Below are positions 329 to 4,799 of a DNA stretch of 5,190 nucleotides, in pieces. The DNA is from SAR202 cluster bacterium (GTDB lineage: Bacteria > Chloroflexota > Dehalococcoidia > UBA3495): positions 1 to 5,190 of the forward strand of contig VFFT01000047.1 in NCBI GenBank assembly GCA_009392775.1, read 5' to 3'. Below the pieces are notes generated by a model. That model saw nothing but the letters and a program-made list of their open reading frames with translations. It had not been told where the DNA came from and made no database searches. Both the position numbers and the translations under genes were made by a program. Positions within the stretch are counted from its first letter, which is position 1, and each line of letters opens with the position of its first letter.

Positions 329-1360
329 TCAGCTAAATAGTTTGGACTTAACCAGTAAGCTGCAGATGATCAATGCGATTATGCCTGAAACACCTAACAG
401 TACAAATGAGGCAAGGGTTGATAGGAATTCTAATTCAGCGCTAAAGGTTGAAACTTGTTTCATCCCAATGGCAACGCTGCCACTCAATACCGTGATTCCA
501 AATAGGACACGTATTCTAGATGGATCAACTAGTTTAGTTGCTCCCGCTCCTAGTTGAGATCCTAGTGAAGCTGCTGCCAGCATTACTATTGCCATGGTGG
601 GGTCAACGTGGTTGCCCAAGGAGTATATAAACGTGCCTACAGATCCTGTAATGATGATCTGAAATAAGTCAGTTCCTATGGCGATTGTGGTTGGGATGCC
701 TACTACATAAACTAATAGCGGCATTAGGATAAATCCTCCGCCGGCTCCGAGCAATCCCGCCAGGAATCCTATGAAGAAACCGATGGATATAGGTATGAAA
801 ACGGAAATATTATCGATTTTTGAAACAGGTAATTTCACGTATGTGGGTATCGGGGGTAGGCCCGGTATCCTGATGTTGTGTGGCGGGATTCGCATATTCT
901 GGATTCGTTGGGCTAATTTAGCGGTCGAGACAGTTTCTCCGTTCTCCTGCAGCTTACGGGTTTTGAAGAAATCGTAAATGATGAATACTCCCAGTGTAGT
1001 TAGGAAAACTATGAATACATAGCCTATTACCGGACCAGCTATTCCAGCGTCATCTAGTGTGCTGTTTAGATGTTCCGCCAAAATTTCAGCGGGAATTGTG
1101 CCAGAAACCATTAGAAAACCTAGTTTGAAATCGACGTTTCCCATTCCCCTGTGTTTTAGCATATTTATTATGGATGATCCCATAACAAGAGTTAGCCCCG
1201 TTCCTACTGCAAACAGAGGTGGGACACCAAACACCAGTAATCCGCCGGTAATTAAAAACCCTCCCCCGACTCCAAAAAAGCCGCCGAGTGTACCTACAAT
1301 AACCCCAAGGAATACCAGGAGTATGGGATTAACTACTATTTCAGCGTTGGGAAAATACAT
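329..1360 (-). CDS. TauE/SafE (TSUP) family anion exporter, probable sulfite/organosulfonate permease
   Basis: This is an inner-membrane transporter of the TSUP family (COG0730), whose members move sulfite, sulfoacetate, taurine-related or other small anions; the exact substrate cannot be read from sequence. The 343 residues show the family's internal duplication. Repeat one (about 12-95) carries GGFFGVGGGF at 26-35 and then VGTGLTLVMGSS. Repeat two (about 188-275) carries AGLLGAGGGF at 201-210 and then IGTDLFQIIITGS. Hydrophobic spans lie near 11-43, 47-66, 77-95, 108-130, 187-222, 226-247, 255-273, 284-300 and 311-338. A hydrophilic, proline-rich linker at about 131-185 separates the halves and probably faces the cytoplasm. 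It makes the protein longer than the usual 250-270 residues, as in the longer TSUP subfamily. The ATG at 1360 lies 4 nt after the stop of the small membrane gene at 1365-1541 and has only a poor ribosome binding site, which suggests translational coupling. The family call is firm; sulfite as substrate is only the default name. Confidence 0.9.
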   Translation of the reverse strand: MYFPNAEIVVNPILLVFLGVIVGTLGGFFGVGGGFLITGGLLVFGVPPLFAVGTGLTLVMGSSIINMLKHRGMGNVDFKLGFLMVSGTIPAEILAEHLNSTLDDAGIAGPVIGYVFIVFLTTLGVFIIYDFFKTRKLQENGETVSTAKLAQRIQNMRIPPHNIRIPGLPPIPTYVKLPVSKIDNISVFIPISIGFFIGFLAGLLGAGGGFILMPLLVYVVGIPTTIAIGTDLFQIIITGSVGTFIYSLGNHVDPTMAIVMLAAASLGSQLGAGATKLVDPSRIRVLFGITVLSGSVAIGMKQVSTFSAELEFLSTLASFVLLGVSGIIALIICSLLVKSKLFS

Positions 1361-1364
1361 TAAA

Positions 1365-1541
1365 TTACTTTGCCAGCCTGGTGAATAACCCTGTCAGATA
1401 ACGGCAGGCAGAAAATAATAATTGCCAGAAAAAATAGAGGGCAAGTGCGGTTATGGCTACTGTCACCATCACCAATATTGACCACATCAAGGGATGAGTA
1501 GAGCTGTATTCTGCGAGAAATGTTCCTATCATTTCATACAT
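1365..1541 (-). CDS. Small single-span membrane protein upstream of the TSUP exporter
   Basis: This is a 58-codon reading frame from ATG at 1541 to TAA at 1365-1367, starting MYEMIGTFLAEY and ending LFTRLAK. It has a short polar N-terminus, one strongly hydrophobic helix (about residues 18-45, including MWSILVMVTVAITALALYFF), and a C-terminal amphipathic stretch with Arg47, Arg55 and Lys58. By the positive-inside rule the C-terminus should face the cytoplasm. Support for coding: an in-frame TAA lies nine codons upstream, a GGA sits at Shine-Dalgarno distance before the ATG, and the stop falls 4 nt before the TSUP start in the same direction. That is the arrangement of a two-gene operon with a small membrane partner. 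ATG at codon 4 is an alternative start. I do not recognise a family. It may be a subunit, a stabiliser or a leader whose translation opens the TSUP start; these roles are inference. Confidence 0.6.
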   Translation of the reverse strand: MYEMIGTFLAEYSSTHPLMWSILVMVTVAITALALYFFWQLLFSACRYLTGLFTRLAK

Positions 1542-2921
<1,380 letters not shown>

Positions 2922-2937: not shown

Positions 2938-3219
2938 CTAGGTTGTCCCTCCGGCTACAGCTGGAACTATGCTAATTTCATCACCCTCTTTAGTGTCTGT
3001 GGATAACCCGCTTAAGAATCGGACATCTTCCCCGTTTAAGTATATATTTACAAAGTATCGAAGCTCTCCATTTTCATCAATGAGCCTCTCTTTAAACCCG
3101 GGGTATTCTGATTCCAAGTTATCTATCATTACTGATAGTATTGACTCTGTCACTTCAACCTTGTCTTGCCCGTTTGTCATTTTTCTTAGCGGGGTAGGAA
3201 TTCTAACTAAGACGCCCAT
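2938..3219 (-). CDS. CysO/MoaD/ThiS-type ubiquitin-like sulfur carrier protein with C-terminal GGTT
   Basis: This is a beta-grasp sulfur carrier of 93 residues. Such proteins are adenylated on a C-terminal Gly-Gly and turned into a thiocarboxylate that hands sulfur to a cofactor or amino-acid enzyme. Visible features are an N-terminal strand VLVRIPTPLRK, a central helix around 25-40, RYFVNIYLNGEDVRFLSGL at 54-72, and the end GDEISIVPAVAGG at 79-91. The IPTxLR start, the FVNIYxNxEDVRF block and the PAVAGG end resemble Mycobacterium CysO, the donor for cysteine synthase CysM, more than plain MoaD. Two threonines follow the Gly90-Gly91 pair, so the acceptor glycine is not terminal and a protease (JAMM type in known cases) should be needed. 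The ATG at 3219 has a good AAGGAG site at 3226-3231, 6 nt away. It is third in the operon, 43 nt after the NIL gene. No E1-like activating enzyme or JAMM protease gene is in the window. The family is certain; the CysO-like role is probable. Confidence 0.9.
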   Translation of the reverse strand: MGVLVRIPTPLRKMTNGQDKVEVTESILSVMIDNLESEYPGFKERLIDENGELRYFVNIYLNGEDVRFLSGLSTDTKEGDEISIVPAVAGGTT

Positions 3220-3225
3220 TGGGAA

Positions 3226-3231
3226 CTCCTT
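3226..3231 (-). promoter_or_regulatory. Shine-Dalgarno AAGGAG of the sulfur carrier gene
   Basis: AAGGAG on the minus strand lies 6 nt from the ATG at 3219 and fixes that start. It shows that the carrier is translated independently of the two genes before it, unlike the NIL gene, which appears coupled. Confidence 0.75.
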
Positions 3232-3262
3232 ATTGTTATTAGACTTGGGTGTTTGTACTAAA

Positions 3263-3520
3263 TTAACCTTCGATTACATCTCCGCCCACTGGGTCTACCC
3301 GGACGCCGGTGGAACTAACCCATTGTAATCCGCGTTCTATTTCTTCTTTCTCGCCATCTAGTTCCAATATCACCCAGCCCATATTCTCACCTATTTCGGC
3401 TCGGCGGATATTTGTTACAAGATGGAAATCCTGGCCTAGTTTATAGATTACTGGCTCCTTTACTAGGTCGTCGGATTCAAATGTAAATCGTACTCGTTGT
3501 CTGTCCACTTTATCTACCAA
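3263..3520 (-). CDS. Stand-alone NIL domain protein
   Basis: A small soluble protein of up to 85 residues made of a single NIL domain, the ferredoxin-like fold that forms the methionine-binding tail of the MetN transporter ATPase and also occurs fused to ferredoxin in proteins needed for homocysteine synthesis in some anaerobes. Matching features are the first strand RVRFTFESDDLVKEPVIYKLGQDF (about 9-32), the core TNIRRAEIGENMGWVILEL (36-54) and the helix and closing strand EEIERGLQWVSSTGVRVDPV (59-78). No cysteine is present, so no iron-sulfur cluster can bind here. The longest start is TTG at 3520, which overlaps the end of the PLP-enzyme gene by 11 nt. GTG at 3508, just after that gene's TAA (TAAAGTG), is an equally good start and removes only four residues. 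Neither has a strong ribosome binding site, so translation is probably coupled. It may be a methionine/homocysteine sensor subunit or a scaffold; the function is inferred from the family and the neighbours. Confidence 0.85.
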   Translation of the reverse strand: MVDKVDRQRVRFTFESDDLVKEPVIYKLGQDFHLVTNIRRAEIGENMGWVILELDGEKEEIERGLQWVSSTGVRVDPVGGDVIEG

Positions 3521-4799
3521 CCGGATTGAAGTTGTTTAGAGCCTCCTCAAATGAGCTCAGCATTGGTTTTACGCTGAGAGGATTAACGACTTCTTCCACG
3601 GCTTCCTGGGTCTTCAGTCCATTACCAGTGATATAGGCTACGGTCAGCTCGTCAGGTTTTATTGCGCCGGATTCTGCGAGTTTCTTGAGACCAGAAATTA
3701 CTACGCCGCCGGCTGTTTCAGTAAAAATCCCCTCGGTTTGGGCGAGCAGTTTAATGCCCTCCACGACTTCGGGTTCGGGAACGATAGTCCCGCTACCGCC
3801 GGAATTCTTAATGACACGTAATGCGTAGATGCCATCCGCTGGGTTTCCGATTGCAAGTGACTTGGCTATGCTGTTTGGCTTAACTGGCATCACGTGGGAC
3901 TGGCCTTCTTTCCATGCGGTGACTATTGGTGAACAACCTTCTGCCTGGGTCATATGCATCTTTGTTACTACTGCCGGATGATGCACCGTGTTTTGGTCTT
4001 CGCCAAACGACATTGGATCGACCCCATCCAGCAGCCCTAAGCAGGCCAATTCATTGAATCCCTTCCAGATTTTTGTGAACATAGCACCTGAAGCAGATGG
4101 AACTATAGCGTGATCTGGGACTCTCCATCCGAGTTGCTCTGCTACCTCGTACCCTAGTGTCTTGCTACCCTCGGCATAATATGGGCGCATATTTATATTA
4201 ACGAACGCCCATGGGTAATTATCACCAACCTCGCTACAAAGACGGTTAACCTCATCGTAGTTGCCGTCTACAGAAACTAAAGTGGGGGCGTAGACAGCTG
4301 CTCCTATAATTTTACCTCTCTCCAGGTCGGATGGTATGAATACTACTGATTTCATTCCTGCCCTAGCGGCATGAGCTGCTACGCTACAGGCTAGGTTGCC
4401 GGTAGATGCACAGGATAAAGTTTCGAAACCAAATTCTACTGCTTTCGTTGCGGCAACAGATACCACCCTATCTTTGAAAGAATAAGAGGGATTTACGCTA
4501 TCGTTCTTGATGTATAAGTTGTTTAGACCAAGCCTTTTTCCGAGGTTGTTAGCCTTCAGTAGCGGTGTATATCCAGCCATAATATCGACCGGAGTCTCTC
4601 CGCTAGCTGGGAGTAAGTCTTCGTAACGCCAGATACTTAGGGGTCCACGGGATATCTTATCCTTGCTTATGACCTGGGAGATTGTATCGTAGTCGTAATC
4701 TACCTCTAGGGGGCCAAAGCAAAAATCGCACACGTTTAGAGCTTCAGCGGGATATTCCCTGCTGCATTCTCGACACCGTAACCCACTTACATATGCCAT
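3510..4799 (-). CDS. thrC: Threonine synthase-like PLP enzyme with N-terminal zinc ribbon
   Basis: A fold-type II PLP enzyme of 429 residues, related to threonine synthase, which converts O-phosphohomoserine to threonine. An N-terminal zinc ribbon (Cys9, Cys12, Cys24, Cys27) precedes the catalytic domain. NPSYSFKDR at 103-111 holds the Schiff-base Lys109. ASTGNLACS at 131-139 is the substrate-carboxylate loop. QAEGCSPI lies at 285-292, ETAGGV at 361-366 and TGNGLKT at 391-397. Several loops differ from ordinary ThrC as I remember it: NPTGSFKD, ASTGNTSAS and VPVGNAGN are here NPSYSFKD, ASTGNLACS and VPSASGAM (233-240). About 262-282 also looks like an insertion. The enzyme is thus a divergent subgroup. 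It is first in an operon with a NIL domain and a CysO-like sulfur carrier, which suggests a sulfur-linked reaction, perhaps homocysteine formation from O-phosphohomoserine. Plain threonine synthesis remains possible. The ATG at 4799 has a strong GGAGGT site at 4808-4813. Confidence 0.85.
   Translation of the reverse strand: MAYVSGLRCRECSREYPAEALNVCDFCFGPLEVDYDYDTISQVISKDKISRGPLSIWRYEDLLPASGETPVDIMAGYTPLLKANNLGKRLGLNNLYIKNDSVNPSYSFKDRVVSVAATKAVEFGFETLSCASTGNLACSVAAHAARAGMKSVVFIPSDLERGKIIGAAVYAPTLVSVDGNYDEVNRLCSEVGDNYPWAFVNINMRPYYAEGSKTLGYEVAEQLGWRVPDHAIVPSASGAMFTKIWKGFNELACLGLLDGVDPMSFGEDQNTVHHPAVVTKMHMTQAEGCSPIVTAWKEGQSHVMPVKPNSIAKSLAIGNPADGIYALRVIKNSGGSGTIVPEPEVVEGIKLLAQTEGIFTETAGGVVISGLKKLAESGAIKPDELTVAYITGNGLKTQEAVEEVVNPLSVKPMLSSFEEALNNFNPVGR

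Follow-up and report, generated by a model that had tools for sequence, protein, structure and literature searches.

A probable MetM/MetO-type homocysteine operon with an added NIL-domain protein in a SAR202 cluster bacterium

Wolinella has a route to methionine that runs through the sulfur carrier HcyS (Krishnamoorthy and Begley 2011, as referenced in PMC5764234). HcyS has a C-terminal extension that must be removed. Its partner is reportedly a MetY-type PF01053 enzyme acting on an acylhomoserine, unlike the enzyme described below, which belongs to the threonine synthase (ThrC) family. For Streptomyces, thiocarboxylated MetO is said to be the sulfur donor. There the enzyme MetM converts O-phosphohomoserine to homocysteine, and the carrier gene metO adjoins metM (Hasebe et al. 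2024, AEM 90:e01247-24, as cited in passages of PMC12172450). According to the same passages a SAM riboswitch precedes metM in S. albulus, and metO belongs to the sulfur-carrier family (PMC12172450). The ThrC of Microcystis is given as 51.6% identical to MetM and its neighbour as 47.25% identical to S. albulus metO; this identity figure and the neighbouring gene are the basis on which we count the protein as kin of MetM. It forms threonine from O-phosphohomoserine in vitro and has threonine deaminase activity as well, and its high expression in cells did not raise methionine. The assay, for which these passages give Na2S as the donor and name no carrier thiocarboxylate, yielded only unidentified HPLC peaks near methionine, both with and without sulfide (PMC12172450). 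Thus, membership in the MetM clade does not prove the function of every member. Another homocysteine-forming enzyme, HcyB (DUF39), requires a NIL-ferredoxin alongside it, according to the part of PMC5764234 used here.

Here we describe an operon which is in all likelihood of the MetM/MetO type, devoted to homocysteine, with a NIL protein added. The original prediction held that the biochemistry of such a cluster was not established. This has to be corrected, as the MetM reaction was reported for Streptomyces in 2024 (passages of PMC12172450) and the core route has been known since then. New, it seems, are a NIL partner, a carrier that cysteine synthesis apparently draws on as well, the spread through Dehalococcoidia and the SAR202 cluster with near-exclusion of HcyB, and a form in which the genes are arranged as CysK-CGL-MetM-NIL. 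We found no report of the enzyme–NIL–carrier trio in the literature text that could be searched, outside of which lie most subscription papers including Hasebe 2024.

The window, that is the whole stretch of 5,190 nucleotides which we analysed, contains three neighbouring open reading frames, all on the minus strand. The enzyme gene (3510..4799), currently annotated 'threonine synthase', codes for a PLP protein of the threonine-synthase family with 429 amino acids (Pfam PALP 7.4e-64). It is followed by the gene of a stand-alone NIL-domain protein (3263..3508; Pfam NIL 2.7e-13), which has 81 amino acids when read from GTG 3508 and 85 if TTG 3520 is the start, and by the gene of a CysO/ThiS-type sulfur carrier of 93 amino acids (2938..3219; Pfam ThiS 9.9e-13). 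The predicted group of three co-oriented genes is therefore confirmed, with the same order and strand conserved in relatives, and the gap of 43 nt between the NIL and the carrier gene is correct. An overlap of 11 nt between the enzyme and the NIL gene had also been proposed, which needs the TTG start. The homologues begin at GTG 3508, one base past the TAA of the enzyme gene, and those listed are mostly 80–81 amino acids long. Therefore, the two genes probably do not overlap. As to the single promoter that was postulated for the operon, a sigma-70-like match (TTGACA-17-TACGAT, minus strand, 4898-4870) is well placed upstream of the enzyme gene, but the five promoter-type matches in the window are not above the chance number (4.3 ± 2.2 in shuffled sequence), and this part of the prediction remains weak.

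Between the tgt gene on the plus strand and the carrier gene on the minus strand lies a perfect 26-bp inverted repeat with a 5-nt loop (2865..2921, arms 2865-2890 and 2896-2921). It is likely a two-way terminator for both genes; a terminator scan of the window did not list it. The tgt gene is convergent with the carrier gene and ends within the repeat. Together the tgt and TauE/SafE genes take up window positions 329-2876, and within 7 kb of the operon a tgt-type cluster is found in 39 of 80 loci and a TauE-type cluster in 26 of 80.

We scanned genome contigs with an alignment of the enzyme and confirmed 86 relatives. The best 80 of these 86 together with the window make up 81 loci, among which 76 have a NIL gene on the same strand, 78 have a carrier gene and 74 have both. 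The median gap between enzyme and NIL gene is 6 nt. This survey of the three-gene cluster, which had been proposed with the prediction, thus finds the trio retained in 74 of 81 loci, and its occurrence on one strand is therefore not due to chance. Among the exceptions, no NIL gene was found in L036, L037, L050 and the cyanobacterial L076, no carrier gene in L074, and L064 and L080 are situated near a contig end. Among the genomes scanned, the one nearest to the window is a Dehalococcoidia draft (G001, locus L001).

The closest named relative of the enzyme is a protein from a SAR202 cluster bacterium with 98% identity. Against the NCBIfam model thrC the enzyme scores 268.5 bits (cut-off 167.1), and it matches cysteate_syn weakly (65.8 bits, cut-off 324.9). 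Both the profiles and the tree place it outside the CysK/CysM family. The tree comprises 40 proteins, and the window enzyme is found together with Chloroflexota, cyanobacterial and Nonomuraea copies behind one 100/100 branch. This MetM-type side consists of 22 rows (the window, 15 Chloroflexota, five cyanobacterial and one Nonomuraea protein), where the Nonomuraea enzyme stands proxy for S. albulus MetM. Canonical ThrC as well as the PRK08197 and PRK06450 types from like genomes fall outside of the clade. The window enzyme shares 51% identity with the Nonomuraea enzyme and 33% with the canonical ThrC of a relative.

The enzyme carries a signature of four residues, L136, R205, Y208 and S212. 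When 228 proteins are aligned, all 211 members of the MetM-type clade carry R205, Y208 and L136, whereas N, R and T occupy these positions in 11 of 11 canonical ThrC. The 211 members are the 80 loci, the window, nine proteins from HcyB-bearing genomes, 120 listed proteins, among which the named ones are cyanobacterial, and the Nonomuraea enzyme. In T. thermophilus ThrC the counterparts of R205 and Y208 are N157 and R160, which we take to be phosphate contacts in the phosphate loop; T88 of the same protein presumably belongs to the carboxylate loop. Compared to canonical ThrC the phosphate-loop arginine is shifted by three positions, and judged by the phosphate-loop Asn/Arg and the carboxylate-loop Thr the window enzyme is not a canonical ThrC. 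These observations suggest that many genes annotated as 'threonine synthase' code for homocysteine synthases and that a test of three residues separates them.

Some further observations on this family may be added. The window enzyme has an insertion of about 17 residues (window 3951-4001, residues about 267-283) with invariant DQNT and HHPA, which is also present in close relatives and missing from the Nonomuraea and L066 enzymes. A third threonine-synthase paralogue of the PRK08197 type (L227 3579-4757, 556 bits) occurs in at least six of the enzyme-bearing genomes among the loci fetched. We also considered the Haloterrigena ThrC (34.6%) as a MetM and dropped it; it is without the signature loop and its place in the tree is unsure.

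The Nonomuraea gerenzanensis locus links this clade to methionine. A SAM riboswitch (RF00162, 68.7 bits) is found directly before the MetM-like gene, and a carrier ending in PAVAGG comes after it. No SAM riboswitch was found at the Rfam gathering score in the window nor in eight Chloroflexota loci, which counts against the homocysteine reading. We do not regard the riboswitch as defining, because the Microcystis homologue is reportedly without one too (passages of PMC12172450).

The NIL protein is a member of the NIL-domain family. The Pfam assignment is firm (50 bits, cut-off 24), and the fold evidence is weak, as the model predicted from 12 sequences has low confidence (pLDDT 60). The model shows the order beta-alpha-beta-beta-alpha-beta, and its six best fold matches in the PDB are chains or soluble NIL domains of MetN-type transporters with TM-scores of about 0.5. 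Near the Nonomuraea enzyme (about 6 kb searched) and a cyanobacterial enzyme (8 kb) no NIL gene was found, which concerns two loci only. The best hint to the role of the NIL protein is that NIL domains stand beside two unrelated homocysteine-forming enzymes, HcyB and MetM. The trio thus hints at NIL as a recurring partner of such enzymes, which is directly testable.

We examined which methionine genes accompany the operon in 14 enzyme-bearing relatives, 13 of them Chloroflexota and the other a cyanobacterium (G014); these genomes stand in for the window's own. The original prediction had named the genes that should be missing if the trio makes homocysteine, and those that should be present. 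A second, canonical ThrC is found in a separate cluster in 11 of the 13 Chloroflexota relatives (G009 and G010 left out), and two representatives score 300 and 314 bits with NCBIfam (cut-off 167). MetA is absent from all 14 genomes, and HcyB (COG1900, PF01837) is absent from all 13 Chloroflexota and present in the cyanobacterium. There is no convincing MetX either: none of the 14 genomes has a match over the cut-off, a strict threshold that none of the control genomes passes either. Candidates with about 140 bits in four genomes were set aside, because the three examined fit the model PRK07581 ('hypothetical protein') best (475–489 bits, cut-off 332). The expected lack of metB, metY and metZ holds for the five of 13 Chloroflexota genomes with weak PF01053 matches only, but not for the other eight, where PF01053 exceeds 400 bits. 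Seven PF01053 proteins were examined; six are nearest to PRK07811 (CGS/CGL) but under its cut-off and one is MGL/MetZ-like. The genes for carrier activation and cleavage are at hand, as E1 (ThiF/MoeB) and JAB (JAMM) matches over the cut-off occur in 14 of 14 genomes. Homoserine kinase is over the cut-off in 12 of 13 Chloroflexota and in the cyanobacterium; in the draft assembly of the nearest relative G001 we found no clear match to thrB, a point against the homocysteine reading. These gene checks in the relatives favour the predicted homocysteine synthesis by the enzyme–carrier trio, which very probably operates.

We extended the comparison with HcyB to 294 genomes of the class to which G012 belongs. 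The enzyme, counted at E <= 1e-100 with eight weaker matches left out, is present in 188 genomes and HcyB in 81; 19 have both and 44 have neither. The two are anti-correlated (odds ratio 0.08, Fisher p 1e-18, a statistic that ignores kinship), and since genome quality is not given for this set, absences may be assembly gaps. Among the 169 genomes with the enzyme and without HcyB, 141 are also without a PF01053 match at E <= 1e-60, where at most six first-look candidates were scored per genome. PF01053 itself is not associated with the enzyme (45/188 against 23/106, p 0.77). SAR202 and other Dehalococcoidia thus gain a candidate methionine route, 141 of the 294 genomes having the enzyme where HcyB and strong PF01053 matches were both missing.

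In the 19 genomes with both proteins the enzyme is not a simple substitute for HcyB; PF01053 is present in 17 of them. Loci from eight HcyB-bearing genomes (L230, L232-L238) show enzyme and NIL gene mostly after CysK-type and CGL-type genes. This arrangement, CysK-CGL-MetM-NIL or part of it, is seen at L230 6935-10667, L233 1077-5395 and L236 5376-9186; at L232 4.8 kb lie between CGL and the enzyme, and L234 ends before NIL. At L233 the CGL-type protein is over the PRK07811 cut-off and CysK over the cysK cut-off, whereas only similarity underlies the gene names at the other loci. At L231, E1 and a remote carrier stand in place of CysK and CGL. At least 17 copies of the enzyme gene, from 16 genomes, have a PF01053 gene at most 300 nt upstream; 11 of these genomes have HcyB and five do not, so this arrangement is not tied to HcyB. 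The cyanobacterium G014 has the enzyme with an adjoining carrier (L076 7839-9598) and HcyB in the same genome, so two routes can coexist.

The best relative of the window carrier in the PDB is 3dwg_C (1.1e-21), whose record is named cfp10A and which we take to be M. tuberculosis CysO. It is 51% identical to the Nonomuraea carrier, and its C-terminus reads PAVAGG followed by TT. The C-terminus is exactly Gly-Gly in 30 of 78 carriers and runs on by one to four residues in 44; the other four are cut, masked or read differently. With two residues past Gly-Gly, the window carrier would therefore need a trimming protease. Exactly one CysO-grade carrier, the operon's, was found in 12 of the 13 Chloroflexota genomes, where CysO grade means more than 100 bits and remote carriers with less than 50 bits were set apart; G013 has further ones. 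A PALP-family gene is located within 0.5 kb of E1 in 10 of 13 genomes, judged by position. The E1-adjacent PALP genes of G001, G007, G012 and G013 cluster with each other; that of G012 was examined and has M. tuberculosis CysM as its closest match (307 bits). A single CysO-grade carrier and a CysM-like gene beside E1 suggest that the operon carrier probably serves cysteine synthesis as well, and is thus probably common to both pathways.

If the carrier served cysteine alone, this could count against the homocysteine reading. Among the alternatives the one that survives best takes up this point: the carrier would be the only CysO of a CysM cysteine route, and enzyme and NIL protein would use free sulfide to make homocysteine. 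The single carrier and the PALP gene beside E1 are in line with this, as are the HcyB-bearing relatives, in which the carrier of the enzyme–NIL pair is remote or not in view. However, enzyme and carrier also come as a pair at the Nonomuraea and Aphanothece loci, and CysM is absent from the operon. We consider this explanation unlikely. Still less probable is a role of the enzyme as an additional threonine synthase, or as a threonine deaminase, in which case NIL would sense methionine to regulate the branch point and the carrier would be present by shared sulfur regulation. Plant threonine synthase is regulated by SAM, and the NCBIfam thrC score and the in vitro activities of the Microcystis homologue (passages of PMC12172450) agree with such a role. 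It conflicts with the separate canonical ThrC in 11 of 13 genomes (G009 and G010 left out), with the differing phosphate-loop signature in 211 of 211 members, with the riboswitch and with neighbours that are sulfur genes (CysK, CGL, carrier). Finally, addition of sulfur or another nucleophile to a phosphorylated amino acid to give another product (cysteate synthase, which is related to ThrC, uses sulfite) is highly improbable, since the weak cysteate_syn match and the displaced arginine would suit it but the signature is common to the SAM-riboswitched Nonomuraea enzyme and the homocysteine gap in the relatives would remain unfilled.

We therefore return to homocysteine synthesis from the carrier and suggest that it could proceed in the following steps. 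Gene anatomy, conservation, clade, residue signature and genome context are our own observations; the MetM reaction is the one reported by others for Streptomyces, and all remaining steps we infer. A JAB protease would trim the two extra residues of the carrier to Gly-Gly. An E1 of the ThiF/MoeZ type, encoded elsewhere, could then adenylate the Gly-Gly end, which would be converted to the thiocarboxylate. The MetM-like enzyme would use PLP to eliminate phosphate from O-phospho-L-homoserine, and the carrier sulfur instead of water would add at the gamma carbon. JAB proteolysis would then release homocysteine. Methionine or homocysteine is the most likely ligand of the NIL protein, which may tune the enzyme or dock onto it, and the same carrier probably supplies the genome's CysM too. 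We also put forward, tentatively and with somewhat less than even confidence, a synthase of three components. In it NIL would be indispensable as a subunit with methionine or homocysteine as its ligand, gating either MetM or its carrier; one CysO pool would be split between CysM and MetM, and MetM-NIL would be re-used in the CysK-CGL transsulfuration operon of other relatives. If true, Dehalococcoidia/SAR202 would draw both cysteine and homocysteine from a single pool of protein-bound sulfur.

Compared with the known systems, the operon is most like MetM/MetO of Streptomyces. In the window, too, a ThrC-fold enzyme adjoins a CysO-like carrier, and the enzyme has the clade and the residues of the SAM-riboswitched actinomycete pair of Nonomuraea. 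The SAR202 operon differs by the NIL gene between enzyme and carrier, by a window without an Rfam match to the SAM riboswitch, and by a carrier with two extra C-terminal residues, of which there is apparently one per genome. HcyS of Wolinella resembles it in the use of a protein thiocarboxylate on the way to methionine and in a C-terminal extension that has to come off. With CysO/CysM/Mec of M. tuberculosis it shares a CysO homologue as the carrier, and CysM-like, E1 and JAB genes are found elsewhere in the genomes of relatives. From this system and from the ThiS-JAB-E1-cysteine synthase operons, as far as these are described in passages of PMC1779556, it differs in that its enzyme belongs to the ThrC family and is not a CysM, and E1 and JAB genes are absent from the window operon. 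Finally, HcyB (DUF39) with its NIL-ferredoxin (part of PMC5764234) likewise combines a NIL domain with a homocysteine-forming enzyme, but HcyB occurs in none of the 13 Chloroflexota relatives, and the NIL protein of the window comes without a ferredoxin part.
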